Origin: Rhizopus arrhizus
Lineage: Eukaryota; Mucoromycota; Mucoromycetes; Mucorales; Rhizopodaceae
Direction of reading: 5' to 3'
Assembly: GCA_024220505.1 (NCBI GenBank)
Contig: JAKZZE010000008.1
Location: 868,001 to 932,000 of the forward strand
DNA length: 64,000 bases
Shown here: positions 8,617 to 62,548 of the stretch, in pieces
How the letters are laid out: every line of letters starts with the position of its first letter
Numbering within the stretch: position 1 is the first letter of the stretch
Translations under genes and position numbers: made by a program
Notes under the pieces: model-generated
Seen by the model: the letters and a program-made list of their open reading frames with translations, nothing else
Databases searched by the model: none
What the model was told of the DNA's origin: nothing

Positions 8617-9288
8617 CAAATGAAACAGTTTATATTTGAAAGAAAATGAATTATTTCGTTTTTATTATTAAATTCGTGAAAAGAAATTCATTGAGTAAAA
8701 TAGAAACAATGAAATAAAGAGACATTCTGAGACTTCAGAAATTTATTTATGCGTAGCACACATCCTATGAACTGGGCTATGATTTAACACGATCTATTTG
8801 ACTTTTTTAAACCCATCAAGAAAGTGTTTTTTTTTTTAAAATGGATTGAATGTGGTATGATGCAATGAATTATCAGCGTATTGGATTTTACTTTAATGCA
8901 CAATAAAAGTTTTATAATTAATCACGTTATAGAATACAGTTTATTGTCTCAGATTATGACACGCCTACTCTATTCATGTCTATAATCTCTTTTAGCCAAT
9001 CAAAAATCAATTCTCTTGCCTTCAAACAGATCTCGTCGTACGTTCTTATTAAAGACAATATTCATACTCATTACCCACAACATAACATTTTTCCTTTTAT
9101 GGCTTATTGCATGTTATGTCTCTGAAGAAACAATCAATGTCAGGCGCTTTTTCTTTTACCTCCATCGCTTGTTTCAAATCCAGCAGTGAGTGAAGCTTGG
9201 GGGGATGATGGAGTGTGATCAAGCTCAAGTGATTATGTCATGATGAAAAATCACCGGAGTTGGTAATTGTAACGAGGCACATTGTAGG

Positions 9289-9321
<33 letters not shown>

Positions 9322-9379
9322 TTTTAATTTTTTAAAACCTATTCTTTTACAACACCCACCACTCCCCTATTCTTATTTT
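8503..9379. other. Intergenic region upstream of the WNK-like kinase
   Basis: About 880 bases with a T tract at about 8587-8616 and another T tract just before the kinase start (about 9291-9320). A frame running from 9260 through that T tract into the kinase is open but begins in low-complexity sequence, so it was not used as the start. No other feature seen. Confidence 0.4.
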
Positions 9380-11383
9380 ATGATGGCATCGGAACAAGAA
9401 ACGGGCAACACAAAGAATAGTCTACATGTCAAATTCAGTCCAGATAATACAAATGAACCAATAGAATATTCAAATTATTATGCACCACTTCAAAACAACG
9501 AAGTCATACCAAACGACTATCCCACTCGTACTTCCTTTAGAATAGATAACCCATACAACATACATACACCCAACGAAATCATCGACCAGTCATCATCCCG
9601 CGATTCAGAGAAAGTAACCGAAGTCTCTCCCAACGAACGCTACGTACGCCTCAATACACTGCTGGGCAAAGGGGCCTACAAGGTGGTCTATAAGGCCATT
9701 GACCGTGATGAAGGTTACGAGGTTGCTTGGAATACAATGCAAGCCATGTCCAACCCAAATAATAAAGATCTTGAACATGAAATTCAAATTCTCAAATCAG
9801 TACGACATCCCAACATCATTTCATTTCACGATGCCTGGTACGGTGACAATGAATTTGTCTTTATCACCGAGCTCATGACCTCTGGCACACTACGAGAATA
9901 CATTCGAAAACTGGTCCCTTTACCCAATCTAAAGATCATTAAACGTTGGTCTCGTCAAATCTTGAAAGGCTTAGCCTATCTTCACGGCCACAATCCACCC
10001 ATCATTCACAGAGACATCAAATGTGACAATATCTTTATCAACGGAGCTCACGGTGAGGTCAAGATTGGAGATATGGGAACAGCCGAGATGAAGTTGGGTA
10101 AAAAGTATACACTGATTGGCACTCCGGAATTCATGGCGCCCGAGATGTATGAAGAACAAGGTTACAGCGAAAAAGTAGATATTTATGCCTTTGGCATGTG
10201 TCTGCTGGAGATGGCGACAGGCGAATACCCTTATGGTGAATGCAAAAACGCAGCACAGATTTACAAAAAAGTATCGGCGGTAAAGATTCAGTGAGGGCAT
10301 GATGGGACGATTGATTTGCTCATGTTTCTTTTAGGGAGTCAAACCGGGCTGTCTGGCCAAGGTGCAGAACCCAGAGGTGTTGAGCGTGATTGAGAGCTGT
10401 CTGAGTGAGGAAGACCAGAGGATGTCTGCTCAAGAGATCCTGGAACATTCCTTTCTGGCGGTTGAACCGGACGTGGTCTTGCTCGCCGCTGACCCAGACA
10501 ATGTGCATCTGACCCTTCAGGTCGTCTTCAAGGGCATGGATAAGCTTTCTGTGAAATTTGATTTTAATGTGGAAACAGACACGGCAGAGGAAGTGGTCCG
10601 GGAGATGATTGAAGAGCAAGTCTTGCCAGAGAGATATCAGCAGCATATCACCAAAGAGATCAATCGGATCTTGCGAGACATCGATAAACCGTCTGAGTCA
10701 GAGCAAGTGGAACAGGTCAGGCGATCGGTCTGGCGAAGAGAGAGTGACATTCGCAATGAGCTGGACAGGACACGAGCAGAGTTGAGTCAGGCGAATGACA
10801 GGGTGCTAGAAGTAGAACAAAAGTGTGATAATTTTGAGGGTCGTGTGCGTGCGGCAGAGAACAAATATAGAGAAGCAGTGCGAACACTAAGAGAACTGGA
10901 AGAGATCAAGGTCCCTCTGGACAACGACAGTAAGCTGCCGACCGACAGCTTGGCCAGTCTGACGATCCAAAGCCCCGCCACCCCACAGGTTCTGGACGAG
11001 CGAGAACGAGAACGGCTGGTGAATCACATCTTGAACGGTAAACAAAAAAAAAAGCAGAGGAGGATGCCCATATTGATTTCTCAATTGTAGAGTATTCCGA
11101 TGATACAGACATCGGGGTCTTTGTCACAGACTGTGCTTTGGCATCCCACCGAGGAGCAGACAAGGCACAAGAGTGGGCAAAGAAATTACAAAATCAAGAC
11201 ATCATGACCGTTGGTGACTTGCGGGATTTACACGATGAAGACTGGGCCGGCATTGGTTTGACTGTGTTTGCTTTACGTGCTTTGAAAAATATGCTGAAAG
11301 GTAAAAAATTGGCTGCAAGCAGCCCATCAACACAACAAATTCCTGCATCTCCTCCACAAGTCATTCAATCTCCTCCATCATAA
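9380..11383 (+). CDS. WNK-type serine/threonine protein kinase (631 aa)
   Basis: Three exons: 9380-10279, 10335-11037 and 11091-11383. The kinase domain spans roughly residues 85-360. The glycine loop reads [13 protein letters not shown] and subdomain II reads EVAWNTM, with no VAIK lysine. The lysine instead sits inside the glycine loop, the hallmark of WNK (with no lysine) kinases. [11 protein letters not shown] and GDMGTAEM, then [11 protein letters not shown], complete the catalytic core. A downstream segment ([26 protein letters not shown]) matches the OSR1_C/PF2-like domain that follows WNK kinases. It is followed by a long coiled coil and a SAM-like C-terminus ([19 protein letters not shown]). 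WNKs act in osmotic and ion homeostasis signalling in animals; the fungal role is inferred only. The start is the ATG pair at 9380, after the T tract. Confidence 0.9.
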
Positions 11384-26650: not shown

Positions 26651-27297
26651 ATATACAATTAAATATGCTTCCACTTAATTACTTTACAATAGCCAGAAGA
26701 GTGCTTTATAACATCAACAATTGCCAGCTCTTTGGAATACAAAAAAAATTAACAAAACAAAATAAAAATACGTAAAACGCGTAAAATAAATGATATGTCT
26801 TACATATTATGTCACTTTTAATTTGTTTCAAGAAACGCCTGAATCAAATACAATGATACCATTCGTTTGATATTTAGAATTAAAGCAAGTAAATGCTCCT
26901 ATTTACCCTTTGTACCTTTTGTAGTACACATCTTCCTTTAGGCATGAACGTACCAATATGTTTCTTTGATATACTTTCTAATATATATCATTTCTGATTG
27001 GTTATAGCAAGTCAATAGGTACAGACAATCGTTTCTAAATAAATATACTTTCCAGTTGTGACAAAAAAGTCAAGATGACTTGAATAGTTGAATAGAAAAG
27101 AAATAAGACTGTTTGATACATTAAAGAGTGTGGGTTTTTATTTTTATAAAGACATGATATTAAATGTTACACTTCAAGGTATTAATTAACTTGAAAGCGA
27201 ATTAAGCTGCTAAGATTAAGAATCTAAGATTACAATATTAGTACCAGGTTTTATAAACGTCAATATCAATAGTATTACCTGAAGGTTAAAGAGAAAA

Positions 27298-28710
27298 CTA
27301 GTGGTTATCATTGCCTACTTTGTTGTGGTCTACGTTGACATCAGTATTGGCATGATTAAGGACACTGATAACATTATCGTCGGCTTCAGGGATAACAATA
27401 ATACCTCTCTTGCGGAGGTTTACTTTGTTTCCATTGAGTGCTTTGTTGTGGTCTACGTTGACATCAGTCTTGGCATGATTAAGGACACTGATAAGATTAC
27501 CGTCGGCTTCAGGATCAACAACAAAATCTCTCTTGCGAAGGTTTACTTTGTTTCCATTGCCTACTTTGTTGTGGTCTACGTTGACATCAGTCTTGGCATG
27601 ATTAAGAACACTGGCAGTATTGCCATCGACTTCAGGGATAGCAATAATACCTCTCTTGCGAAGGTTTACTTTGTTTCCATTGAGTGCTTTGTTATGATCT
27701 ATGTTGACATCAGTCTTGGCATGATTAAGGACACTGGCAGTATTGTCATCGACTTCAGGGATAACAATAAAATCTCTCTTGCGGAGGTCTAAGGTGTTTC
27801 CATTGCCTACTTTGTTGTGGTCTACGTTGACATCAGTCTTGGCATGATTAAGGACACTGGCAACATTATCGTCGACTTCAGGAGCAACAACAAAATCTCT
27901 CTTGCGGAGTTCTAAGGTGTTTCCATTGCCTACTTTGTTGTGGTCTACGTTGACATCAGTCTTGGCATGATTAAGAACACTGGCAGTATTGCCATCGACT
28001 TCAGGGATAGCAATAATACCTCTCTTGCGAAGGTTTACTTTGTTTCCATTGAGTGCTTTGTTATGATCTATGTTGACATCAGTCTTGGCATGATTAAGGA
28101 CACTGGCAGTATTGTCATCGACTTCAGGGATAACAATAAAATCTCTCTTGCGGAGGTCTAAGGTGTTTCCATTGCCTACTTTGTTGTGGTCTACGTTGAC
28201 ATCAGTCTTGGCATGATTAAGGACACTGGCAACATTATCGTCGACTTCAGGAGCAACAACAAAATCTCTCTTGCGGAGTTCTAAGGTGTTTCCATTGCCT
28301 ACTTTGTTGTGGTCTACGTTGACATCAGTCTTGGCATGATTAAGAACACTGGCAGTATTGCCATCGACTTCAGGGATAGCAATAATACCTCTCTTGCGAA
28401 GGTTTACTTTGTTTCCATTGAGTGCTTTGTTATGATCTATGTTGACATCAGTCTTGGCATGATTAAGGACACTGGCAGTATTGCCATCGACTTCAGGGAT
28501 AGCAATAATACCTCTCTTGCGAAGGTCTACTTTGTTTCCATTGAGTGCTTTGTTGTGGTCTACGTTGACATCAGTCTTGGCATGATTAAGAACACTGACA
28601 AGATTGCCATCAACTTCAGGAGCAACAATATCTCGCTGAATGACAGCAGCAGAAGTATTGCCAAAGAGACAAACCAAGGCCAAAGTTGCTAAGAGAGTAA
28701 GAGATCGCAT
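27298..28710 (-). CDS. Secreted kexin-processed repeat protein, 11 units (470 aa)
   Basis: A single-exon gene. The product starts with a signal peptide (MRSLTLLATLALVCLFGNTS-A). The rest is eleven tandem units of 41 residues with the core SVLNHAKTDVNVDHNK and, except after the last unit, an LRKR boundary. KR after a hydrophobic/charged context is the consensus cut site of the Golgi protease kexin (Kex2), so the precursor should yield about ten similar secreted peptides plus a C-terminal one (NDNH end). Unit starts alternate between GIIAIPEVDGN, DFVVAPEVDDN and DFIVIPEVDDN. Units 3-5 and 6-8 are identical, so a 369-bp block was duplicated. This fits fungal Kex2-processed repeat proteins, which include pheromone precursors, wall-active repellents and signalling peptides. 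The actual activity is unknown. Confidence 0.85.
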   Translation of the reverse strand: MRSLTLLATLALVCLFGNTSAAVIQRDIVAPEVDGNLVSVLNHAKTDVNVDHNKALNGNKVDLRKRGIIAIPEVDGNTASVLNHAKTDVNIDHNKALNGNKVNLRKRGIIAIPEVDGNTASVLNHAKTDVNVDHNKVGNGNTLELRKRDFVVAPEVDDNVASVLNHAKTDVNVDHNKVGNGNTLDLRKRDFIVIPEVDDNTASVLNHAKTDVNIDHNKALNGNKVNLRKRGIIAIPEVDGNTASVLNHAKTDVNVDHNKVGNGNTLELRKRDFVVAPEVDDNVASVLNHAKTDVNVDHNKVGNGNTLDLRKRDFIVIPEVDDNTASVLNHAKTDVNIDHNKALNGNKVNLRKRGIIAIPEVDGNTASVLNHAKTDVNVDHNKVGNGNKVNLRKRDFVVDPEADGNLISVLNHAKTDVNVDHNKALNGNKVNLRKRGIIVIPEADDNVISVLNHANTDVNVDHNKVGNDNH

Positions 28711-28770
28711 GTTGAGTAAAATATATTTTGATTTAATATTTTTTTTTCTTTCAAAGAGAAAAACCAGGCC

Positions 28771-28780
28771 CCTTTTTATA
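28771..28780 (-). promoter_or_regulatory. TATA box of the left repeat-protein gene
   Basis: TATAAAAAGG on the minus strand, about 60 bases upstream of the ATG, mirrored in the right copy. It is followed by an A-rich leader. Confidence 0.6.
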
Positions 28781-29255
28781 TCTTTTTTTTTATATGAAGC
28801 ATGAGCGCCTATCACTATTATTATTATTATTATTAATAATAATACTTCTTCTTTTTTTTTTTTTTTTCGTCTTGCAGTAAAGCATTTCAAAATGATGAAC
28901 ATATTGCATAAAAACGTTCTAAAACAACAAGGGAAGAGCATGCTTTCTTTGTTTCAAAAGTAAAGCACGTCCAAGTTAGGAAGGTACATGCTTTAGGATA
29001 GCTTTCATTTTGTGAGTTTGTTTGAAGACATATTGAAAACTATTTCATATAAGAATCTAATGAAAGCATGGAATCAATCTCAATGGCTTACCCTTAAATC
29101 ACTTGTACCACAATGCATTTTGCGATTATTATTATTTTCATTTCCATGAACCTTTATTCTATGTTCTTCTCCTTTCATATATCAAGTCCTATCATCTCTT
29201 TTAACATGTTTTATATCTTATATAAATCAATTCGTAGTAATAAATAATTGGCGTT

Positions 29256-29289
<34 letters not shown>

Positions 29290-30166
29290 CCTTCGGTGAA
29301 CGATGCACTACATACTGCGAATGTGTACCATATGTTACCACCAAACAAAACAAAGGCTTTTTCTCTCTCTCTCTCTCTTTGACGTTTTTGTAACTCTTTT
29401 GCATGTTAAATCTCTTATAAAAAGAAAGAAAAAACTTGCTTTGGTATTTACTTGTTGATTTATTAATTATTAGTACAATACAGTTCTTATAGGTGTAAAT
29501 CTGATCCCTTTTTTTTATTTATTTATTTTTATCTTTCTTTTTAGCATTGGTTTTGAATCCTTTGACCATATTTTGATGAAGATCGACAAACAATTTACAG
29601 CAAATATCTTAATAATAGTAACCACAACAAAACAAAGTTTTTTTTCGACAAGTGTAACACAAGCGTATTCAAAACAATTCCATGTATTTGTATAAAGATT
29701 TTACTGCAGGCAGTATATTAAAAAAAAAAGAAAAAAAAAAAAGCCAATTGTTTTACAGTCTCTCCCACATATTTCTTTTTTGGTACCAAAGACCTTTCTT
29801 TTACACTTGCAACCCTGCACATACCCTTCATTTACATCTCTGGTCAGTCAGTCATTTCTGTGTGTGTGTGTGTGTGTTTTTTTTATGAGCTCTATAGGAT
29901 GGACTCCAACAGAATAAGATAATGACAGTTATTCAAATGTTTTGTTGGGATATTGTAGACTTCTTTTTTTTTTTCCACCCGGAATATTGAAAGAGCTAAA
30001 CTAGACCATGCCCATCCTTTGTGAAAGCTTAAAAATCAGAGAAATACAATCAACATAAACGTGCATATCTGTCTCGACTAATGACACAATTGGATGCAGC
30101 TCTTGTGAAAGACCAATAGGATATTACACCTTTTTAATGAAACTTTATGACAACAGTGATGAAAGA

Positions 30167-30202
<36 letters not shown>

Positions 30203-30982
30203 GATCAACATTATAATGGCTCCATTACAATTGATGAATAAAATGAATAAAGGTGATTAAGCATGGTATTTTGTCTTTGAAAATTACATGTAAATGAATA
30301 AATATAAGCACAATGTCATTAAGATCTAATACTGAGTCTGAATGAGAAAGAATACTCATACCTATGCCTTTTTACAGTTTTATTGAACCTTCCATTTCTT
30401 CAGGTATATTAACCTGTCCCATCGGCATAGATAAGTACGTAATAATGAGCTGTTGTTGGATAATTCGCGTTAAATATACAGCCTTGTTCTGATTTCAGAA
30501 TGTACCGTATGGGTCCTGAATCATGCTCAAATGAGCACACAAATCATTTCATGACAAAACCATCAGGTTAGAAATAGTGTCCTTTTGTTTTAGGCCTCGT
30601 CTTTTCAAGTCATTATCTTTAATAAAGTCTTTTCATGTTGTCTTTGCTTGAATTGTAAGCAACACTGTACTATTTGCATAGGAAATTCATGTAATTCTTG
30701 ATGGACGCGACTTTATGATAGAAGAACACTGGTCTCTTTTTATTTTATTTTATTTTGGAGATGGTGTGTCAATAACACGCACTGTATTTAGCAAGCTTAA
30801 TAATAGTAAAACAAGCAACAGCTATATTGCACACATTAAACGTTAATAGTGATTTTTACATGATTATAGAAAACTCTTTATTATTATTATTATAGTTATT
30901 ATTATATCTATTACTGTTATTCTATAACGCAAGGTTCTTTGATATCAGCTATATCCGTCAAAGGGTCGTTTTCTTATATTTT

Positions 30983-30986
<4 letters not shown>

Positions 30987-31052
<66 letters not shown>
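30987..31052. repeat. T66 homopolymer near the inner edge of the left arm
   Basis: A run of 66 T. The mirrored run in the right arm (34844-34897) is 54 A. Differences of this kind point to replication slippage or assembly uncertainty after the arms were duplicated. Confidence 0.8.
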
Positions 31053-31054
<2 letters not shown>

Positions 31055-31317
31055 TCTTTTTTATACGAAGCTAGTCAGGCTTAATAAATGAAACAAAGAA
31101 AATGTGGAAAAGTTGCTTTTGTATAAGTAAAGTAAGCATGAATGATTGCTTCCTGGATGTGTATTTGTGTTGATTTATTTGTCAAAGAGTTTGGTTTTCT
31201 CTATCGTACCTCTTTACAATGCTGACTGAGTTTAAATCGCAACATTTATGCCTAAAAAAGTATTATCGTAACCCTATCTCTCTTTTATTTTTGTCATATT
31301 TATTTTTCTGAACGGCC

Positions 31318-32987
31318 ATGTCCTTAAACATTGGCGACTTAGTTTGTGAAGGAAAGTTCAGAATAAAATGCATTTTAGGAGCAGGTGGTTATGGAAAAGT
31401 ATATAAAGGTGAAATCAAAAAAAGCGAATGAAAAAAGCATCCTTATTCATATTTCCTTTTTTTACTTACACAGCTGAAAGTACGACCGAAAAGAGAGAAG
31501 TCGCCATAAAAATAGCAGGCATACAACAAGAAAGCCATTTAATAAAAGAAGCAAATGCCTATGAGGCCATGAAATCAGCCTTTGGTTATCCTAGAGTTGA
31601 ATGTCATGGCTTTGAAAAAGGTTATTGTTACCTGGTAATGGAATTGCTTGATATTTCACTTGAAAAATATTTATCAAAATATAAATGCTTGTCCTTGAAA
31701 ACAGTACTCATGTTGGCAGATCAAATGGTAAAAAGAGAAGGAATCTTCAACGTGTAGGCGAAAAAGACAACATTAATTTTTCAAATAGCTTACTAGAATT
31801 GAGGCTCTTCATAGAAAAGGATATCTTCACCGCGACATTAAACCCGAAAATATGGCAATGGGATTAGGCAATAACAGTATATTTTTACACATTTATGATT
31901 TCGGCCTTGCCAAAATATTCAAACACAATAATGTACATATTAGTATAACTGAAATTGATCATTTAGTTGGCACATCAAGATACTCCAGTTTAAATGCACA
32001 CAAGGGAATTGGTATTAAAAAAGAAGGGAAAAAAAGATATGAATAGCTCAATTCTTTGAAACATATAGAGTTGTCACGAAGAGATGATTTAGAATCAATC
32101 GCATACAGCATTATTTATCTTGCAAAAGGCAAGTTACCATGGCAAGGACTTGGGATCCTGGATACGGATGAAAAGTGCCGTCAAGTGTACAAGTTGAAAA
32201 GACAAAGCCCTGATAAGATTTGTGGAGGGCTGCCTGCTATATTTGCCGCCTTTTTAAAATATTGTCGTGATCTAGCTTTCCATGACAAACCAGACTACTC
32301 TTATTGCCACAAATTATTTGCTGGTTTGCTTAAAGAAAAAGGATTAAAATTTGACTATATTTATGAATGGACGGTAATTAGATACTTCTCTCCTCGTGTA
32401 CATTGCGTTATGATAAATATCATTTACTTTTTGATATATATAGCCCTTTAACAACCCTATTAGATTGGCACGAAGAGAAAAAGAAAAGAAGGCAGAGAAA
32501 CAGAAAATTGAAGAACAAAAGAAAATGCTTTGTGGTATTCAAAAGAAGAAAAATAAGAGAAAAAACCGAAAGAGGCCCTGGAAACATGCAGTTCAATGGC
32601 GTAAGCCGGTTCAAGACCATCTTTTACCTCCTGACTTGCCTATTGAACAAAAGCGTGCTATCGTATTACAAGCCATGCAATCAAGCAACTTTAATAATGT
32701 TGCTTTTATGAACAGCACCAGCCAAAAGGTAAAGTGGTAATATTTTAGATAAACTATTTGTATTCAAAATCGAACAATAGCTCCCTCCTTCACCTGTAGT
32801 CAATTCATTGCTTCACCAACTTTCAATGGCCTATCCACCTTTGCCAGTATACCCACCTCATGCTCAAACACAATTAATCAATCATCACATGGCCTTGCTT
32901 CAGCAACAGCATTTGGCTTTTGTACAACTCCATCAACAACAACAACAACAACAACAGAAACAGTCCACGGGAGTTCAGGCTCAATAA
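31318..32987 (+). CDS. Casein kinase I-family protein kinase (454 aa)
   Basis: Six exons: 31318-31408, 31474-31727, 31789-32011, 32069-32373, 32444-32728 and 32781-32987. The kinase domain covers about residues 1-290. Key motifs are the glycine loop LGAGGYGKVYK, REVAIKIAG, YLHRDIKPENM and DFGLAKIF, with the CK1 signatures VGTSRYSSLNAHKGI and ELSRRDDLESIAY replacing the usual APE motif. The tail is divergent: a Lys/Arg-rich coiled stretch (about residues 295-335), a proline-rich part and a polyglutamine run near the end. CK1 enzymes act in growth, trafficking and transcriptional control. The gene is the only one in the single-copy spacer of the giant inverted repeat. Confidence 0.88.
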
Positions 32988-34769
32988 AACATGGCTTTAT
33001 TTAATTCTTTATAAGAAACACATCATATGATAAAGTGTGAAGATGAAAATAAATGAAATAGCACTAAATTATGAATCTTTTCAAATACTAAAGTTACAAT
33101 TGCTATTGTCAGAGCAGTGAATAGATAAAAATACTTTGTAGATAAGAAAAGTTGTGTAACATGAGTCCAATTTTCATACAATTTTTTTTTGCATGTTTAA
33201 ACTTTATTGAACAATAATTTTCGTACAATGCCCGTGCACCAGATTAATTACTAGATTAAATCTTCTATGTTACTATAGCATGAATGCACCAGCTCTTATG
33301 TATATCTATACTATAAAGTTAGGATATATGGTATTCATTAAAGAGAAAAGGTTTAAGATATGTCAAAAATTGTATAGCCGAGTTTTTACAAAAAAAAAAT
33401 ATCACTGTTTATAGGACATATATTCACCTTTTACCCTTTATAATAGCCCCGATTCTTATCAACATACCATCGATATAGTACTTGAGAATACCAGAAGAAT
33501 TATCGTTTCATTCCATAGCTTATCATTGCATATATACCCAATATATTGAGTAAATTAAAGCTAAACATGCTCTATTGAATCCAAGCTGAGAGTTTGCTTT
33601 AACCAACCGCTAATATTGCGAGCATTATTCTCTTATAGTCATTGCTTTGTCAATTTCAACTTGTGCTTAGATTGTTATCTCATTGAATGTAAGCTTGGGT
33701 TTGATCAGAACAGTAGTAATTTAACGTTTTTATTGTAGTACCAAGAAGACAAATCTTAAAATCACCCGTGTTTTTGTGAAACAATATGAGTTTGGTGCAA
33801 TGGTCGATTAAACGGTTTAATACGGCCGCCCTAAATATCCCTAACTCATTATAGATTAATAGAACAAGCATCGGATCTTAGAGTCGCTTCATGTAGCGAT
33901 ATATATCCCAGTTCTTATTTAATATTCCTGACTTTATCTCATATAATAGTATTCTCGGCATTTTTCTATTAATTGAACTAATCTCACCTCTTATGACAGT
34001 AAACAACCTGTGTTTTTTGTAACTAACTTAAATAAATAGCTTCTTTTAAGATAAAGAATACATTAATATATTCTAAGCCTATAATATCGCTGCACCACAA
34101 TCACGATTAAAATTATCAGATAAACTTTACTATGGACCGGAGTATCCTCTTTCTGTTTTTCCTGAAGATGAATACTAACATGGATAAGCAACAGCCGACA
34201 TATACGATCACTACACTGTGCTTGACAACTTCGGTATAAATGTGTTAAGAAGTGGGAAAGACAGAACTCATTACAAGTAAAAAAAAAAGCATTTACCATA
34301 ATACTCTCGTAATCGCAGATGAAGAACAAAAATTGCTTTGTAAAAATAATTTGAAATGAGTACACTTATCTCCTTCGAATATCATACTAGTCAAAAAGTC
34401 ATATTTACTTTTCGTTTGATTCTGTAAATTCAAATGAAAGATACTATTGCGACGAGCTAGTTAAGGAAAACAAAGCCTATAACTTCTGGAAATTTGATTA
34501 ATTTATACAGAGAGGACACAGAAATTGTAAGCAGCATGATAAATAATATGACTAATAATCATAGTGTCTAGTAAACCATAACAACACTAGAAGATAAGAC
34601 ACATGAGCTAACAATAAATAACATCAATAACATAAAGTATCAACAAAGAACGCTTCCAAATTGAAAAGTGTCAGACCACCAAAATAAGCAATATTTTTAG
34701 CCCATGTAATTGAAAATACTGATTGCCTTGTTGGCTACCAAGTTAACAAAGCTAAATATTTGACATTTT
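32988..34769. other. Spacer of the inverted repeat downstream of the CK1 gene
   Basis: About 1.8 kb of single-copy AT-rich DNA. Short open frames (for example the minus strand at 34063-34365) have no recognisable features. No RNA gene or transposon recognised. Confidence 0.4.
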
Positions 34770-34841
34770 TTATACAAAAGCAACTTTTCCACATTTTCTT
34801 TGTTTCATTTATTAAGCCTGACTAGCTTCGTATAAAAAAGA

Positions 34842-34901
<60 letters not shown>

Positions 34902-35681
34902 AAAATATAAGAAAACGACCCTTTGACGGATATAGCTGATATCAAAGAACCTTGCGTTATAGAATAACAGTAATAGATATAATAATAACTATAATAATAA
35001 TAATAAAGAGTTTTCTATAATCATGTAAAAATCACTATTAACGTTTAATGTGTGCAATATAGCTGTTGCTTGTTTTACTATTATTAAGCTTGCTAAATAC
35101 AGTGCGTGTTATTGACACACCATCTCCAAAATAAAATAAAATAAAAAGAGACCAGTGTTCTTCTATCATAAAGTCGCGTCCATCAAGAATTACATGAATT
35201 TCCTATGCAAATAGTACAGTGTTGCTTACAATTCAAGCAAAGACAACATGAAAAGACTTTATTAAAGATAATGACTTGAAAAGACGAGGCCTAAAACAAA
35301 AGGACACTATTTCTAACCTGATGGTTTTGTCATGAAATGATTTGTGTGCTCATTTGAGCATGATTCAGGACCCATACGGTACATTCTGAAATCAGAACAA
35401 GGCTGTATATTTAACGCGAATTATCCAACAACAGCTCATTATTACGTACTTATCTATGCCGATGGGACAGGTTAATATACCTGAAGAAATGGAAGGTTCA
35501 ATAAAACTGTAAAAAGGCATAGGTATGAGTATTCTTTCTCATTCAGACTCAGTATTAGATCTTAATGACATTGTGCTTATATTTATTCATTTACATGTAA
35601 TTTTCAAAGACAAAATACCATGCTTAATCACCTTTATTCATTTTATTCATCAATTGTAATGGAGCCATTATAATGTTGATC

Positions 35682-35712
<31 letters not shown>

Positions 35713-36590
35713 GCTTCTTTCATCACTGTTGTCATAAAGTTTCATTAAAAAGGTGTAATATCCTATTGGTCTTTCACAAGAGCTGCATCCAATTGTGTCA
35801 TTAGTCGAGACAGATATGCACGTTTATGTTGATTGTATTTCTCTGATTTTTAAGCTTTCACAAAGGATGGGCATGGTCTAGTTTAGCTCTTTCAATATTC
35901 CGGGTGGAAAAAAAAAAAGAAGTCTACAATATCCCAACAAAACATTTGAATAACTGTCATTATCTTATTCTGTTGGAGTCCATCCTATAGAGCTCATAAA
36001 AAAAACACACACACACACACACAGAAATGACTGACTGACCAGAGATGTAAATGAAGGGTATGTGCAGGGTTGCAAGTGTAAAAGAAAGGTCTTTGGTACC
36101 AAAAAAGAAATATGTGGGAGAGACTGTAAAACAATTGGCTTTTTTTTTTTTCTTTTTTTTTTAATATACTGCCTGCAGTAAAATCTTTATACAAATACAT
36201 GGAATTGTTTTGAATACGCTTGTGTTACACTTGTCGAAAAAAACTTTGTTTTGTTGTGGTTACTATTATTAAGATATTTGCTGTAAATTGTTTGTCGATC
36301 TTCATCAAAATATGGTCAAAGGATTCAAAACCAATGCTAAAAAGAAAGATAAAATAAATAAATAAAAAAAAGGGATCAGATTTACACCTATAAGAACTGT
36401 ATTGTACTAATAATTAATAAATCAACAAGTAAATACCAAAGCAAGTTTTTTCTTTCTTTTTATAAGAGATTTAACATGCAAAAGAGTTACAAAAACGTCA
36501 AAGAGAGAGAGAGAGAGAAAAAGCCTTTGTTTTGTTTGGTGGTAACATATGGTACACATTCGCAGTATGTAGTGCATCGTTCACCGAAGG

Positions 36591-36623
<33 letters not shown>

Positions 36624-37099
36624 AACGCCAATTATTTATTACTACGAATTGATTTATATAAGATATAAAACATGTTAAAAGAGATGATAGGACTTGATAT
36701 ATGAAAAGGAGAAGAACATAGAATAAAGGTTCATGGAAATGAAAATAATAATAATCGCAAAATGCATTGTGGTACAAGTGATTTAAGGGTAAGCCATTGA
36801 GATTGATTCCATGCTTTCATTAGATTTCTTATATGAAATAGTTTTCAATATGTCTTCAAACAAACTCACAAAATGAAAGCTATCCTAAAGCATGTACCTT
36901 CCTAACTTGGACGTGCTTTACTTTTGAAACAAAGAAAGCATGCTCTTCCCTTGTTGTTTTAGAACGTTTTTATGCAATATGTTCATCATTTTGAAATGCT
37001 TTACTGCAAGACGAAAAAAAAAAAAAAAGAAGAAGTATTATTATTAATAATAATAATAATAATAGTGATAGGCGCTCATGCTTCATATAAAAAAAAAGA

Positions 37100-37109
37100 T
37101 ATAAAAAGG
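37100..37109 (+). promoter_or_regulatory. TATA box of the right repeat-protein gene
   Basis: TATAAAAAGG 61 bases before the ATG at 37170. The surrounding promoter is the mirror image of the left gene promoter, so both genes should share regulation. Confidence 0.6.
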
Positions 37110-37169
37110 GGCCTGGTTTTTCTCTTTGAAAGAAAAAAAAATATTAAATCAAAATATATTTTACTCAAC

Positions 37170-38090
37170 ATGCGATCTCTTACTCTCTTAGCAACTTTGG
37201 CCTTGGTTTGTCTCTTTGGCAATACTTCTGCTGCTGTCATTCAGCGAGATATTGTTGCTCCTGAAGTTGATGGCAATCTTGTCAGTGTTCTTAATCATGC
37301 CAAGACTGATGTCAACGTAGACCACAACAAAGCACTCAATGGAAACAAAGTAGACCTTCGCAAGAGAAATATTATTGTTATCCCTGAAGTCGATGACAAT
37401 ACTGCCAGTGTCCTTAATCATGCCAAGACTGATGTCAACATAGATCATAACAAAGCACTCAATGGAAACAAAGTAAACCTTCGCAAGAGAGGTATTATTG
37501 CTATCCCTGAAGTCGATGGCAATACTGCCAGTGTTCTTAATCATGCCAAGACTGATGTCAACGTAGACCACAACAAAGTAGGCAATGGAAACACCTTAGA
37601 ACTCCGCAAGAGAGATTTTGTTGTTGCTCCTGAAGTCGACGATAATGTTGCCAGTGTCCTTAATCATGCCAAGACTGATGTCAACGTAGACCACAACAAA
37701 GCACTCAATGGAAACAAGGTAGAGCTCCGCAAGAGAGGCATCGTTGTTGCTCCTGAAGCCGACGGTAATGGTATCGGTGTTCTTAATCATGCCAAGACTG
37801 ATGTCAACGTAGACCACAACAAAGTAGGCAATGGAAACACCTTAAATCTTCGTAAGAGAGATCTTGTTGTTATCCCTAAAGTCGATGGCAATACTGCCAG
37901 TGTTCTCAAGGATGCTGATACCAAGGTTAACGTAAAGGATAACAAAGTAGGCAATGGAAATAAAGTAAACCTCCGCAAGAGAGGTATTGTTTTTATCCCT
38001 GTGGTCGATGGCAATACTGCCAATGTTCTCAAGGATGCCGATACCACTATTACTGTAAAGGATAACGAAATAGCCAATGATAATCACTAG
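37170..38090 (+). CDS. Secreted kexin-processed repeat protein, 7 units (306 aa)
   Basis: Sister of the left gene, in opposite orientation. The signal peptide and first unit appear identical to the left copy. There are seven 41-residue units with LRKR boundaries. Units 1-5 keep the SVLNHAKTDVNVDHNK-type core. Unit 5 has GIGVLNHAK, and units 6 and 7 are diverged (VLKDADTKVNVKDNK and VLKDADTTITVKDN), ending NDNH as in the left gene. The diverged units suggest either more ancestral repeats or a second peptide type. Like the left gene it should be secreted and cut by kexin into several peptides. Function unknown; a pheromone, wall-associated peptide or effector are all possible. Confidence 0.85.
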   Translation: MRSLTLLATLALVCLFGNTSAAVIQRDIVAPEVDGNLVSVLNHAKTDVNVDHNKALNGNKVDLRKRNIIVIPEVDDNTASVLNHAKTDVNIDHNKALNGNKVNLRKRGIIAIPEVDGNTASVLNHAKTDVNVDHNKVGNGNTLELRKRDFVVAPEVDDNVASVLNHAKTDVNVDHNKALNGNKVELRKRGIVVAPEADGNGIGVLNHAKTDVNVDHNKVGNGNTLNLRKRDLVVIPKVDGNTASVLKDADTKVNVKDNKVGNGNKVNLRKRGIVFIPVVDGNTANVLKDADTTITVKDNEIANDNH

Positions 38091-38729
38091 TTTTCTCTTT
38101 AACCTTCAGGTAATACTATTGATATTGACATTTATAAAACCTGGTACTAATATTGTAAGCTTAGATTCTTAATCTTAGCAGCTTAATTCGCTTTCAAGTT
38201 AATTAATACCTTGAAGTGTAACACTTAATATCATGTCTTTATAAAAATAAAAATCCAATCTCTTTAATGTATCAAACAGTTTTATTTCTTTTCTATTCAA
38301 CTATTCAAGTCATCTTGACTTTTTGTCACAACTAGAAAATATATTTATTTAAAAGCGATTGTCTGTACCTATTGACTTGCTATAACCAATCAGAAATGAT
38401 ATATATTAGAAAGTATATCAAAGAAACATATACTTGCTTTAATTCTAAATATCAAACGAATGGTATCATTGTAATTATTCAGGTCTCTTTTCAAAAATAT
38501 GGCTTAGACAATAGAAAACAAACAAGGATCAATCAGGGATTCAGACTGCCTGCGTACCTTTCTGATCCTTACTTTCTCTGCAACGGCATCCTTTTGACCC
38601 TGAGAAGGAATAGAGCCGAGAATTCAGATGCAGTCCTGTCAGGGTTTCTCCTGAAATGCAAGCATCACGCCATGCTGCCATTTGAAAGGATCAAGAGACT
38701 CCTTCCCAAGCAAGACAATAGCGGTGCCT

Positions 38730-46539: not shown

Positions 46540-48500
46540 ATGCCACCTGCAAGTCATGATCATGGTGGACAACCCCAAGCACAATACGGTTATCAACCAC
46601 CGGCCGATAACAATTATTATTATAACAACGGAGCTCAGCAAAACAATGTGTCCATCGGTCGTCGAGCGACCACCTTGGGTCGAGCACCCACCCGTCGTAT
46701 GGCACCCGGTGCAAACTCGATCGCCAACGCAAGTTCGAATATCCAAAGAGGCCGTACACTGATTCGTCCTGATCGATACCAAGAACCTCCTCCTCTCTTG
46801 ACGGGTAAACCGACCGGAGGTCAAAGCCTCTTTGATCCCTGGGTCTTGTTTTCTCGCATCGTGACCTTTTGGGCTTTGCCACCGATGCTGAGGGCGTTCA
46901 AGATGGGCGATGCAGGTATGCAGCAGGCTTGGCGAGAAAAGATCACTTTGTGTTTCATCATTGCTTGTATGGGTGGTTTTGTGGCTTTTATCACAATCGG
47001 TTTAAACGCCACACTCTGTCCTTCGGATCAATCGAACGATCAGCTGAATTATCTCACTTACAATGACACTTCGACCACAGGTAAGAACAGATTCCCCCCT
47101 TTTTTTTTTGCTTGAATGTGTGTGATAACCTATGAATATTAGCCAACATGCTGGGCATCTTGGGCTGGCAATTCAACATCTCCGCCTCTCATCCAACCAG
47201 CGCACTCGAATTTTATGAACTGGCCAAGATACCAGGAACAGACATCACGAATTATTTTACACATGGCCAGGATATACCCGACTGCACCAACACGGGCAAC
47301 GCTGCCGCCTCTGCCTTCACCGCCGTCACGTTCAATCCTTGTTCGGCCGGCACCTGTACCGCGGGTGGGCTGACGTCGACGAATTACAACACGCTCGGGA
47401 TCGTGAACAGTACGAAACAAGTGGGCTTTGATTGGAACCAGCTCGCGTCTGCGAATCTGACAAACTACTTTGTGATCGACGGGGTAGTGCTCAACATGGA
47501 TCCCTACATCCAATACTACCCGACCGCGCTGGCCAACGACGCCCTGGACAGCGTCATCCGTCAGATACTCAACAGCACCTGGGCCGAGGGAGGACGAGAC
47601 GGGACGAAGCTCTTGACCCGACAAGACGCATTCAAGGCGGCCGTGCACTGTCTCACGAAGAAATACCGAGCGGGCCACATTGACAAGAAGTCCACTGGCT
47701 GTTTTGTGTCCCAGATCATCCTGATCTGCTCCCTCGTCGTCGTCCTCGCCATCGTCCTCGCCCGGTTCTTTATGGCCCTCATCTTTTCCTGGTTTGTATC
47801 CCGCAAGCTGTCCAGAAGCCCCCCTCCGGCCCCGAGCAGTGCGATGGCGGCCAAGGACGAGACGATGGAGATGGCCACCATGCTCCAGCAGCGGATGGAT
47901 TCGGGCATCAGCAGCACCCTGACGGCCGCTGGGGCTGGCACGGGCAAGAAGGTGGAGGTCGGAAACGATCTCTATACGGTCCTGCTGATCACCTGCTACT
48001 CTGAAAACACCGAAGGCATCCGAGGCACGGTCGAATCGCTTTCCATGACAGACTATCCGGACGATCGCAAGCTGCTCTTCTTGATCGCGGATGGGATCAT
48101 CACCGGTCATGGCGAGACCCTGTCCACACCCGAGATGTGTCTGAGCCTGATCACCTTTGACGATGAATCCATGAAAAATCCTGAACCGATGGAATACATT
48201 GCCGTCGCCGTCGGTGCCAAACAGTTCAATTGCGCCAAGGTCTATGCTGGTCACTATGTCTGCAAGGGACACAAGGTGCCCATGATCCTCGTTGTCAAAT
48301 CGGGCAATCCGGATGAGCAAGGCAAACCGAAGCCGGGCAATCGTGGCAAGCGTGATTCACAGTTGATTTTGATGAACTTTTTCAGTCGAGTGACTTACAA
48401 TGATCGCATGACGCCTTTGGATTATGACTTGTTTCGAAAGATTCAGTACTTGATGGGTGTCACGCCAGATTATTTTGAATTGGTCTTGATGGTTTGTGTG

Positions 48501-48537
<37 letters not shown>

Positions 48538-49843
48538 AACGCGTGGTGGTTAGGTGGATGCGGACACAAAGGTATATCCGACATCGATGCGATTGCTGGT
48601 GAATTGTATGGTGAATGACAACTTGATCATGGGTTTGTGTGGTGAGACAAAGATTGCGAACAAGCGGGATTCTTGGGTGACAGCGATCCAAGTCTATGAA
48701 TACTTCATCTCGCACCATCTGGCCAAGGGCTTCGAAGCCATCTTTGGTGGTGTGACCTGTCTACCGGGCTGTTTCTGCATGTATCGTCTGAAGGCACGCA
48801 AGGGCGATGGGGATTGGGTACCGATCATTACCAAGCCTGAGATTGTTCAAGAATACTCTTCCAACACGATCGACACCCTCCACCAAAAGAATCTGCTGCT
48901 GCTCGGTGAAGATCGTTTCCTGACCACCCTCATGCTGCGTAATTTCCCTTTTCGAAAGATGGTGTTCACACCGCAAGCGATCTGTAAGACGATCGTGCCA
49001 GATGAATTCAAGGTCTTGCTTTCCCAACGTCGTCGGTGGATCAATTCGACGATTCACAACCTCTTTGAGCTCGTACTGGTGCGTAACTTGTGTGGTACGT
49101 TTTGCTTCTCGATGCAGTTTGTCGTCATGATGGATCTCGTCGGCACCTTGACTTTACCGGTCGCCATCGTCTTGACCGTCGTCTTGATCGCCAGCATGGC
49201 CTCGTCCAAGATCACCTCGGTTTCTACTGCCATCCCTCTCATCCTGCTCATCATCGTCCTCTTTTCACCTGCCTTTTTGATCTTGATCACGACTCGCAAG
49301 TGGGTCTATCTGATGTGGATGATTGTCTATCTGTTTGCTTTACCTGTCTGGAACTTTATCCTGCCTGTCTATGCCTTTTGGCATTTTGATGACTTCTCTT
49401 GGGGTGAGACGAGAAAGGTCGAGGGTGAGACCAAGGAGGATCACTCCAAGAAGGACGGTGTCTTTGATCCTTCCAAGGTGCCCTTGAAGCGGTGGGAGGA
49501 CTATGAACGAAAACGGGTCCGGGCAAACAAACGAAGAGAGAGAAAGGAAAGACAGATGCGGGAGATGATGGGCCCGACTCACTTGATGCATTCGACCGCA
49601 CCGCCCGAGGAAGACGAGTCCAGACGTGGACTGCTAACGGCCGAAGACGATGACATGTCCCAAATGTCCTATCATACCGACATGTCCAATAACCCTCCTC
49701 CTGCTCACTACTTTGATCCTTCCAAAGAAGCGCCTGCCAAGGCCGGTTCTGGCTATTATCCTACCTATCGACCTCAATCCATGGCTCCTCCAGCCGTCAC
49801 CAATCCACAACAACAGCCTCCTCCACCCTTGCCAAAACAATAA
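46540..49843 (+). CDS. Chitin synthase, class IV type (1059 aa)
   Basis: Plasma-membrane glycosyltransferase that polymerises UDP-GlcNAc into chitin (EC 2.4.1.16). Three exons: 46540-47080, 47143-48491 and 48554-49843. After a polar N-terminus come membrane segments ([19 protein letters not shown]; later [20 protein letters not shown]). The catalytic domain then has VLLITCYSE, the nucleotide-binding VDADTKV, the [11 protein letters not shown] motif and the chitin synthase signature [13 protein letters not shown]. Three to five membrane helices follow ([20 protein letters not shown] and onward). The tail is charged, then Pro-rich. There is no myosin motor, so it is Chs3/class IV-like rather than class V/VII. 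GC content is higher than in the surroundings, as expected for a highly expressed gene. Confidence 0.93.
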
Positions 49844-51426: not shown

Positions 51427-51936
51427 TGTGAGATTGGAGTTTGTAAGATTTATATAGCATTAAATAGGTTTGTATCAGATAAGATCAAAGATTTAGGTAG
51501 GATTTGATTCCAAAAATAGTAATGATTTGAATATGAGTTGCTTGCGTTAAGTAAGCACCAGATCTTATTAAGTAGATAAAACAGTTTTGAGTAAAGTAAA
51601 AGTAAAAAGATAAAATAAAAAGGATTTACAATGAGGTGTATATACTTCAAGGGACTTCTTGTTCTTGATACTAAGTAAAATAAAAGAAAAACAAAAGAGA
51701 TTTACTTTGGATGATATTTATTAAAATAATCAAAAAGTAAAGTGGTGAAGTAAAAGTAAGTATATGACATATTGAAGTTATTTATATGTTTTTTGGTTTT
51801 TCTGATTATATGCTGTTTTTGGCTGATGTATTGATAAAAGCTTCATTTTGTATGTATTCATAGAGCTATATGAATTCACAGAGTTGTATGAACTGGCATG
51901 ATTGTATGAATTCAGGAAAGGCTCGTGACACCAACA
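51427..51936 (+). repeat. Well-preserved LTR-like unit A
   Basis: About 510 bases. Very similar to 55606-56203, including a stretch of more than 100 bases around 51610-51735 that matches 55830-55955 with few differences. Starts near TTGTGAGATT and ends CACCAACA. Confidence 0.6.
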
Positions 51937-55605: not shown

Positions 55606-56203
55606 TGCTGTGAGATTAGAGTTTGTAAGTTTATTATAGTGTTAAACAGATTTGATTTAAGAGAGTCTTGATATAAGATCAAAGGTTTAGGTAGGATTTG
55701 ATTCCAAAAAGAGTAATGATTTGAGTATGAGTTGCTTGCGTCAAGTAACCAACAGATCTTATTAAGTAGATAAAACAGTTTTGAGTAAAGTAAAAATAAA
55801 AAGGTAAAGTAAAGATAAAAGAAAATAAAAAGGATTTACAATGAGGTGTATATACTTCAAGGGACTTCTTGTTCTTGATACTAAGTAAAATAAAAGAAAA
55901 ACAAAAGAGATTTACTTTGGATGATATTTATTAAAATAATCAAAAAGCAAAGTAAATAAAGTAGAGTAAGTAGTTAAAGTAGGTGAAGTCAAAAAAAAAA
56001 AAAAAAAGAATAAGAAAATACATTCGGCTATTTATATTTTTTTGGTTTTTTCTGATTATATGTTGTTTTTGCTGATGGTTTGATAAAAGTTTAATTTTGT
56101 ATGAATTCATAGAGTTATATGAATTCACAGAGTTGTATTAATTCACGAAGCTGTATAAATTTGCATGGTTGTATGAATTTGGGCAAGGTTCGTGGCACCA
56201 ACA
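55606..56203 (+). repeat. Well-preserved LTR-like unit B
   Basis: About 600 bases, TGCTGTGAGATT to CACCAACA. Close relative of unit A (51427-51936) but with an extra A-rich segment around 55990-56010. Confidence 0.6.
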
Positions 56204-60424: not shown

Positions 60425-60426
60425 TA

Positions 60427-61150
60427 CAGTAGGTCAAAAAATTGCTGCAAGGAATTGCAAAATACCGGTTTTACAGCTGGTTGTCTATGGATACTGCATG
60501 AAACTATCTCAAACATTGATTGTTTGTACCTCACTAGAAGGGGCATTTATTCGTCGATTATCTGATATGGGCAATAGTTATTGGTGGAATTTGATATTGT
60601 TAAAGGGAATATTATAAACATCCGGCATTTTTTACTTGTTTACATATGTTTGCAATGACGAATTTTAATACGACCCAACCGGTTGCTATCATAATTTTTC
60701 ACATTCTTGACATGATTAGAATGTTGCCAGTATATAAAAGCGCTTACAATTCCTTTATTCTAAATTTTAAATTTTCTTATCTAAATTACAGTAGGTCAAA
60801 AAATTGCTGCAAGGAATTGCAAAATACCGGTTTTACAGCTGGTTGTCTATGGATACTGCATGAAACTATCTCAAACATTGATTGTTTGTACCTCACTAGA
60901 AGGGGCATTTATTCGTCGATTATCTGATATGGGCAATAGTTATTGGTGGAATTTGATATTGTTAAAGGGAATATTATAAACATCCGGCATTTTTTACTTG
61001 TTTACATATGTTTGGAATAACAAATTTTAATACGACCCAACCGGTTGCTATCATAATTTTTCACATTCTTGACATGATTAGAATGTTGCCAGTATATAAA
61101 AGCGCTTACAATTCCTTTATTCTAAATTTTAAATTTTCTTATCTAAATTA
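60427..61150 (+). repeat. Tandemly duplicated mariner left end (2 x about 362 bp)
   Basis: 60427-60788 and 60789-61150 are near-identical direct repeats, each starting CAGTAGGTCAAAAAATTGCT after a TA. Each includes the terminal repeat and 5' region of the mariner. The first copy stops at TA and the second runs on into the transposase gene. This is what self-insertion of the element into a TA of another copy, followed by loss of the rest, would leave. Confidence 0.8.
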
Positions 61151-61179
61151 TTTCTCTTTTTTACCTTATTACCAATCGC

Positions 61180-62548
61180 ATGCCTAAACGACTGCCAGAA
61201 GAAAAAGTAAACGATCTCAAGCAAGCATTAACTGGATCCACATCAACGTACGATATTGCTAAGGAGATTGGAGTACATGAATCAACTGTTAGTAGATACT
61301 CTAGGCGGTTGTTTTCAAATAGGACAATAAACACAGGTGGTAGACCTACATTAGTCTCCAAAGTGACGAAGCGGCTAATCAAAAGAAAAGTCATTGAAGG
61401 GGTTCTAAAGACTGCCAAAGAGGTACACCGGGAGCTGGTTCAACTTGGCTATGCTATCTCATACCAGTCAGCAATTAACGTCCTGAAATCAATGGAGTTC
61501 CATTCTTCAATAAAAAAAAAGAAGCCGTTTCTGACAAAAGCTCATATGCAGCATCGATTAGAATGGGCCAAGAAGCACCAGGATTGGACAGTGGAAGAAT
61601 GGCGAAAAGTCGTCTTTTCTGATGAAACCAAGATCAACGTATGGGGCTCTGATGGTTGCAAGTACTATTGGAAAAGACCAAGTGATCCTCTTCAACCGCA
61701 TCATCTAGAGTTTACAGTCAAGCATGGAGGCGGCAAGTTGATGATGTGGGGCTGCATAACATCTGAAGGACCAGGATATGCTTGTCAAATTTACGGTGGG
61801 AACATGAACGCGGATGTTTATCAGCATATATTAGACACTACACTTCGTGATACTATGGAGTACTACAATTTCAACTGGTCTGAAGTGTTTTAAGTATTCA
61901 AAAATAAGATAAAGAACAATTAACGAGACCGAACAATAGTTCTAAAGTCGAATACTTTTATTAAAGAAAGATTTCAAGGCTATTTATATTAGTTGAGCAA
62001 GACCTGAGGTTAGATGACGAAAATAGTTACGACCGATATGATTTGACATGTATAAGAAAAATTTTATAGACTGATGTTAATAATCAACTGTTGAGATGAA
62101 AGTGAAACTTGGCTGTTTAGGGCAGTGATAATTATCAGGTTCTATTCTTATTCAAACTCATTTGTAAAGATTTAGTCCAGAAGGATAAGACTGTATCTTA
62201 TTGACATGTCAAAACATGACATGGTCCAACATTTACTTTCAGCATGATAATGATCCAAAGCACAAGGCAAAATCCACAATAGCCTGGTTAGATAATCATC
62301 AAGTGCGCTATATTAGCGATTGGCCAGCTCAGAGTCCGGACTTAAATCCAATAGAACATGTATGGCATCAACTGAAGTTAAAGCTCAGCTGTTACGAACG
62401 TAGAGCAAAGAATACGGATGAGCTTTGGGAACGAGTAGAAAAAGCATGGAATGAATTTGATAAAGAACTTTGCCAAAGGTACATCGATAGCATGCCGGCA
62501 AGAATTCAAGAGGTTATTAATAGAAAAGGAGGACCAACTAAATATTAA
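61180..62548 (+). pseudogene. Tc1-type DDE transposase, interrupted by a solo LTR
   Basis: The start MPKRLPEEKVNDLKQAL opens a helix-turn-helix region (YDIAKEIGVHESTVSRYSRR) with a second DNA-binding helix set (TAKEVHRELVQLGY). The DDE catalytic triad is complete across the interruption: VVFSDETKINVWG (first D), FQHDNDPKH (second D) and SPDLNPIEHVWH (E). Between D2 and E the spacing fits DD34E Tc1 elements. A solo LTR (61881-62221) interrupts the gene between the first and second D. No other disabling change was noticed in the visible coding parts. The ending RKGGPTKY is typical. Confidence 0.88.
61881..62221. mobile_element. Solo LTR inside the mariner transposase (TSD TGGTC)
   Basis: 341 bases, TGAAGTGTTTT to AAAACATGACA (imperfectly inverted ends), flanked by TGGTC at 61876-61880 and 62222-62226. 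Carries the same ACGAGACC, TTTATT and GGCTATTTATA blocks as the LTRs in the LINE ORF1, so one LTR family hit both elements. Confidence 0.85.

Follow-up and report, generated by a model that had tools for sequence, protein, structure and literature searches.

Candidate genes for Kex2-processed repeat proteins built of 41-residue units in Rhizopus arrhizus

Repeat genes in an inverted duplication

The stretch of Rhizopus arrhizus DNA analysed here, called the window, comprises 64,000 nucleotides (contig JAKZZE010000008.1, positions 868,001 to 932,000). It contains two genes, A and B, whose predicted proteins consist of a signal-peptide-like leader followed by tandem units of about 41 residues. 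A search of the organism's own genome, which covered 50.26 Mb in 41 contigs, revealed a third gene of this type, C. The features of the three genes are as follows:

27298..28710, minus strand: gene A, an uninterrupted coding sequence for 470 amino acids (ATG at 28710, stop at 27300-27298), with a 26-residue leader and 11 units
28633..28710, minus strand: leader of A, signal-peptide-like by eye, ending in ...NTSAA VIQR and followed by D
27301..28632, minus strand: unit array of A, with one unit of 40 amino acids, nine of 41 and one of 35; LRKR at 10 of 10 internal boundaries
28767..28782, minus strand: TATA-like box of A, with the 5' end located 72 bases upstream of the ATG
37170..38090, plus strand: gene B, an uninterrupted coding sequence for 306 amino acids (ATG at 37170, stop at 38088-38090), with a 26-residue leader and 7 units
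37170..37247, plus strand: leader of B, identical in protein to the leader of A
37248..38087, plus strand: unit array of B, with one unit of 40 amino acids, five of 41 and one of 35; LRKR at 6 of 6 internal boundaries
37098..37113, plus strand: TATA-like box of B, with the 5' end located 72 bases upstream of the ATG
C40:1201668-1202465: gene C, coding for 265 amino acids with 6 units and separated from B by about 296 kb

Behind their common leader, the proteins of A and B consist of units and nothing else. The description given in a first-pass annotation of the window, a signal peptide followed only by 11 and 7 tandem units, is thus borne out, with the signal peptide assigned by eye to the N-terminal sequence MRSLTLLATLALVCLFGNTSAA. 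The unit length of 41 residues proposed there holds for 14 of the 18 units (nine in A and five in B), but the first unit of either gene has 40 residues and the last has 35, lacks LRKR and terminates in NDNH. Likewise, the motif LRKR, which had been placed before each new unit, is found at all 16 internal boundaries of the two genes, whereas the first unit is preceded by VIQR. In the DNA, the units appear as 123-base arrays with a Tandem Repeats Finder score of 1852 and 10.7 copies in A, and a score of 938 and 6.4 copies in B.

Genes A and B are positioned in the two arms of an inverted duplication, for which the main match between arms is 96.9-97.3% identical:

26956..31126: left arm, containing gene A
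34770..38431: right arm, containing gene B

Upstream of the genes (28711-31126 and 34770-37169), all 2398 of 2398 aligned columns of the arms are equal, with 20 gap columns, and downstream 330 of 341 aligned columns are equal; the unit arrays differ despite the identical upstream regions. This combination suggests a recent duplication, or conversion between the inverted arms. The region upstream of C is equal to that of B in 1180 of 1247 aligned columns, with 106 gap columns. The three genes together contain 24 units, which reduce to 19 different versions at the DNA level and also to 19 at the peptide level. Blocks of units move among the arrays. The three-unit block A3-A4-A5 is identical in DNA to A6-A7-A8, and units B1 and B3 are equal to A1 and A3, respectively.

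Constraint on the unit boundaries and predicted processing

The sequences of A, B and C indicate that the three genes probably encode Kex2-processed repeat proteins (KEPs), with predicted secretion, cutting and trimming. Across the genes, LRKR is found at 21 of 21 internal boundaries. The alignment of units has 41 columns, of which 30 are variable in protein and 11 invariant, and the probability that four random columns all fall among the invariant ones is 0.0033. None of the four LRKR columns varies in protein, and three of their four codons vary silently (CTT/CTC, CGC/CGT and AGA/AGG). Pooled over all unit pairs, which are not independent of each other, the proportions of nonsynonymous (pN) and synonymous (pS) differences at LRKR are 0 and 0.235. 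The corresponding ratio, omega, is 0.95 in the head of the unit (columns 1-14), 0.29 in the middle (columns 15-29) and 1.62 in columns 30-37. The core highlighted in the first-pass annotation is, by alignment and by pN/pS, the best conserved stretch of the unit apart from LRKR; columns 15-29, a stretch chosen from that core, are less diverse than 15 random non-LRKR columns (P 0.004).

The distribution of basic residues points in the same direction. None of the 879 post-leader residues outside LRKR (404, 256 and 219 in A, B and C) is an arginine, and the dipeptides KR, RR, KK and RK occur nowhere in the three proteins besides LRKR. The 10 KR dipeptides of A and the 6 of B exceed every one of 2000 shuffles of each protein (means 1.64 and 1.14, maxima 7 and 5); in C, 5 KR compare with a shuffle mean of 0.87, a count that some of the 2000 shuffles also reached. 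As judged from the sequence, the kexin-type boundaries are held constant at the protein level, in support of the earlier proposal of a kexin-type precursor with many copies of one peptide family.

In the anticipated pathway, the precursor would enter the secretory route by means of its signal peptide, a late-Golgi kexin would cut after KR in LRKR, and a Kex1-type carboxypeptidase would trim R, K and R. The cell would then release 24 linear peptides, each 35-38 residues long and 19 of them distinct. The genome contains at least three loci with a kexin P domain. At one of them (C28:394k), adjoining open frames carry pieces of a subtilase domain and a P domain, followed by an apparent membrane span, recognized by eye, and a tail. 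Serine carboxypeptidases account for 25 matches in the genome, exon pieces counted, an assignment that is made at class level and does not designate a Kex1.

The residue after LRKR is D at 10 of 21 sites, G at 8 and N at 3, and Kex2 is described as preferring acidic residues at P1' (PMC2515848). In the yeast Kex2 matrix given in the same source, LRKR is good at P3, P2 and P1. Two of its values speak against the anticipated cutting, as L at P4 has only 0.09 and Q at P2, in the VIQR of the first site, scores 0 (PMC2515848). From these scores and the acidic preference at P1', the internal LRKR motifs are plausible kexin sites, and VIQR is less so.

Searches for relatives in the protein database admitted only proteins of about 168-535 amino acids. 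No relative of gene B was found at E <= 0.001 among 7,994 candidates scored, and none of the three-gene alignment at E <= 0.1 among 7,996. The database includes proteins of R. delemar, R. microsporus, R. stolonifer and R. arrhizus, though not A, B and C themselves; since the three genes are seemingly absent or unannotated there, the negative result says little on other Rhizopus. Neither A nor B has a domain above the Pfam cut-off, and the earlier statement that the core belongs to no named family is confirmed for Pfam and, by sequence, for the PDB. The Pfam matches of A and B, the best of which is to MarB (E 0.0024; 18.2 bits, with the cut-off at 27), were rejected as chance, and a PDB sequence match at E 0.12 was rejected. 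Viral contigs gave 18 pattern matches and no relative. The family is not described in the titles and abstract openings of the literature covered, and the core words occur in no paper text, supplements lying outside this coverage.

KEPs are defined by at least three tandem repeats, each of at least 8 and none of more than 100 amino acids, located between KR, KK, RK or RR, and 357 are reported from Mucoromycota, in 38 of the 39 strains surveyed (PMC7329392). All three genes agree with this repeat rule, having 11, 7 and 6 units of 35-41 amino acids bounded by KR, and a kexin-like gene is found in the same genome. The 41-residue unit belongs to the class of 25-50 amino acids, whereas the most abundant class in Dikarya is given as 9-24 (PMC6339444). 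No sequence relative was found, the survey that lists the 357 being covered in its main text (PMC7329392). Because KEPs are a defined class with this wide occurrence in Mucoromycota, the term "undescribed secreted peptide system" used in the first-pass annotation is too strong; what stands is its suggestion of novelty for the sequence family. Judged by sequence comparison, A, B and C look like a new, unfamiliar family within a known class of fungal gene.

Leader-sharing genes and a possible origin of the arrays

When C and the relatives that emerged were used as queries, three further genes came to light, in which the first ~25 residues match the leader of the KEP genes:

C40:827046-827279: gene C40:827k, 78 amino acids, VIKR followed by 52 residues
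L010 4070-4492: gene C23:244k, 141 amino acids, AVRR followed by a Pro/Ala-rich chain
L037 1501-1635: gene C23:297.6k, 45 amino acids, VRR followed by 20 residues

The link to the KEP genes has modest E values, namely 4.2e-4 for C23:244k with C as query and 0.0075 to 0.0086 with C40:827k as query. An alignment that starts 140 bases upstream and includes B, C and the three leader-sharing genes places the TATA-like box ATATAAAA, or one similar to it in the leader-sharing genes, in each of the five, and shows a near-continuous DNA match through the leader; the box of A is the same as those of B and C. With up to three mismatches allowed, a leader DNA pattern built from the six genes matches only those six in the genome, each with 0 mismatches, and the reversed pattern, used as a control, gave 0 matches. 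Because the three relatives have a dibasic site at the position of VIQR in the KEP genes, the ancestral leader was probably already followed by a basic cut.

The mature part of C40:827k resembles the units. Its gapped alignments to B7 and to A11 were equalled by 0 of 2000 shuffles each, and those to B1 and C6 have shuffle fractions of 0.012 and 0.016. It ends in ...NDNG and a short Cys-containing tail, which is similar to the NDNH of the last units and likewise without LRKR. By contrast, the mature parts of both C23 genes are unlike the units, with shuffle fractions between 0.13 and 0.88. In the simplest history, which seems somewhat probable from these sequences, a gene for a one-unit secreted peptide acquired the LRKR linker and underwent tandem amplification to give the arrays. 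The older form may be preserved in the KDADT middles of B6, B7 and C6. Since one genome contains three closely related arrays together with a one-unit relative and two genes that join this leader to another cargo, array origin and the role of copy number become testable.

It is also conceivable, if short of probable, that the promoter box, the signal peptide and the basic site constitute a secretory launch cassette with at least four mature parts, of which the KEP genes would be one outcome, much as in venom or skin peptide families. The candidate cargoes are the 41-residue arrays, the one-unit relative, the Pro/Ala-rich chain and the 20-residue peptide. If such a cassette exists, the array and its one-unit relative in the same genome would capture how a KEP originates. 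Conotoxin superfamilies are known for a conserved leader joined to a divergent mature part. The six genes are comparable in that their mature parts differ behind a common TATA-like box, signal peptide and basic site, but they number only six, all in a single fungal genome, and half of them make up one KEP family.

The peptides flanking the two C23 genes (L010 4665-5018 and L037 1099-1326) are similar by eye, which suggests a segmental duplication of these genes. A match of the C23:244k protein to New_glue, with 19.7 bits against a Pfam cut-off of 31, was rejected as chance.

Candidate roles of the peptides and the surrounding locus

After removal of RKR, the predicted products have an average mass of 3.66-4.22 kDa and an isoelectric point of 4.2-8.3. 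The units are devoid of Cys and Trp, and an N-glycosylation sequon is found in none of them. Each unit displays a hydrophobic head, for example GIIAIP or DFVVAP, then the conserved middle VLNHAKTDVNVDHNK, and finally a polar tail rich in Asn. The grand average of hydropathy (GRAVY) is 0.27 to 2.62 for the first six residues and -0.37 to -0.97 for the remainder. In B6, B7 and C6, polar positions swap charge and the V/I/L, A, T and N positions are kept.

The function of most KEP peptides is described as unknown (PMC9769878). By analogy, the proposal tentatively favoured for A, B and C is that their products are surface-associated, self-assembling peptides of the cell wall or interface, of the repellent type, mass-produced from several gene copies. 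Rep1 of Ustilago maydis is described as having tandem repeats of 34-55 amino acids that are cut by Kex2 into amphipathic peptides of 35-53 residues, which form surface-active amyloid-like fibrils (PMC4617103). A Rep1-like role is suggested by the size of the peptides, their head-and-tail build, the charge-swapping polar positions among constant apolar and Asn positions, and the repeated gene copies. Surface-active peptides of this kind would be candidates for use at the air-water interface by a mould of this group. Compared by description and not by sequence, Rep1 differs in that the A, B and C peptides are net hydrophilic; its Rep1-11 (228 amino acids) is reported as a long non-repeat C-terminal product, which the three genes lack (PMC4617103). 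Hum3 and Rsp1 of U. maydis similarly contain arrays, of 31-36 and of 18 or 21 amino acids, with putative Kex2 sites, but Hum3 is described as ending in a hydrophobin domain (PMC4617103), a feature without counterpart above its Pfam cut-off in A and B. Hydrophobins gave 0 matches in the genome and likewise 0 in the control genomes, so their absence is not established.

Several observations weigh against the proposed surface role. Over their full length, the peptides are mildly hydrophilic (GRAVY -0.11 to -0.38) and mostly acidic, and this net hydrophilicity disfavours strong water repellency. An alternating pattern reaches P 0.005 only in an 8-residue stretch chosen post hoc, and at 170 degrees the three 16-residue middles have P values of 0.11, 0.28 and 0.30. 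A single unit has no predicted structure in AlphaFold2, with a predicted local distance difference test (pLDDT) of 57 and a predicted template modelling score (pTM) of 0.15. Knock-outs of KEP genes in Coprinopsis cinerea are reported to have no detectable phenotype (PMC9769878).

A rather doubtful alternative is that the peptides are diffusible signals, such as hormones or mating-type factors, read by a receptor in the way of the alpha-type pheromones of Ascomycota. The peptide array behind a signal peptide is indeed common to both, KEP architecture being described as matching that of alpha-factor precursors (PMC6339444), and the conserved middle is under constraint. A pheromone is nevertheless less likely, because the predicted products of 35-38 residues are too long in comparison with alpha pheromones of 9-24, because the dipeptides X-A and X-P, the spacers processed by Ste13, directly follow KR in 0 of 24 units, and because the sex pheromones of Mucoromycotina are described as apocarotenoids (PMC6339444). 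In addition, 19 distinct versions with charge-swapped middles are unlike a single receptor ligand.

An antimicrobial or host-directed action on other organisms is unlikely. A Rhizopus-like mould meets competitors and hosts, and the Coprinopsis authors suggest that KEP peptides have a part to play in the biotic environment (PMC9769878). The rapid turnover of units and the changing copy number are also in line with such a role. However, the peptides have no cysteines, no sign of an amphipathic helix (P 0.30 to 0.79 for the moment at 100 degrees) and a net charge of -5.1 to +0.8, unlike typical antimicrobial peptides, which are cationic, and nothing here ties them to any host. Ribosomally synthesized and post-translationally modified peptides of the ustiloxin type require a Tyr in the core of the precursor as well as UstYa genes in the neighbourhood, and the units of A, B and C contain 0, 0 and 1 Tyr. 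UstYa (DUF3328) gave 0 matches in this genome and 0 in the control genomes as well, so its absence is not established.

It is improbable that the array stays uncut as a whole, beta-rich wall repeat protein in which LRKR forms a structural turn. AlphaFold2 models the whole precursor as beta-rich, with two long strands per unit and a pTM of 0.58, but the mean pLDDT is 59, the five models range from 59 to 32, and none of the 94 PDB fold matches with E <= 10 reaches E <= 0.001, the best being 0.21. The fold model was set aside for its low confidence and the lack of a PDB fold match. Perfect repeats, moreover, tend to be drawn as solenoids by structure prediction, and the confinement of arginine to LRKR together with KR at every boundary fits cutting better. 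Finally, an array without function, satellite-like and open merely by chance, is very improbable: the variable unit number and the exactly repeated blocks are minisatellite-like, but three open frames of 470, 306 and 265 codons share one register, leader and stop, changes in LRKR are silent and never replacements, and the middle has the low omega given above.

Around the KEP genes, the spacer between the arms holds a kinase-like fragment (31789-32043), the left flank contains ATP synthase b and TFIIE beta fragments, and the right flank a homeobox open reading frame (ORF). In the protein database, this ORF has an 88% match to an R. delemar protein, with other Mucorales lower, and an identical protein is present. 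The CotH family, which is expanded in Mucorales, has 34 matches in the genome. Together, this one protein and the CotH count tentatively place the host as a Rhizopus near R. delemar. Rfam and tRNA scans of the window gave no match.

Elsewhere in the window, at 60425-61150 and 61147-61893, two tandem copies of a 362-base sequence (99% alike) adjoin an ORF with a Tc3-type transposase domain, and 51479-51889 and 55673-56138 are dispersed direct repeats, about 90% alike. A chitin synthase gene (PF03142) extends across neighbouring open frames at 47136-49843. At 9233-11090, a kinase is followed by an ORF matching a WNK/OSR1-type C-terminal domain, and the two are probably a single WNK-like kinase gene.

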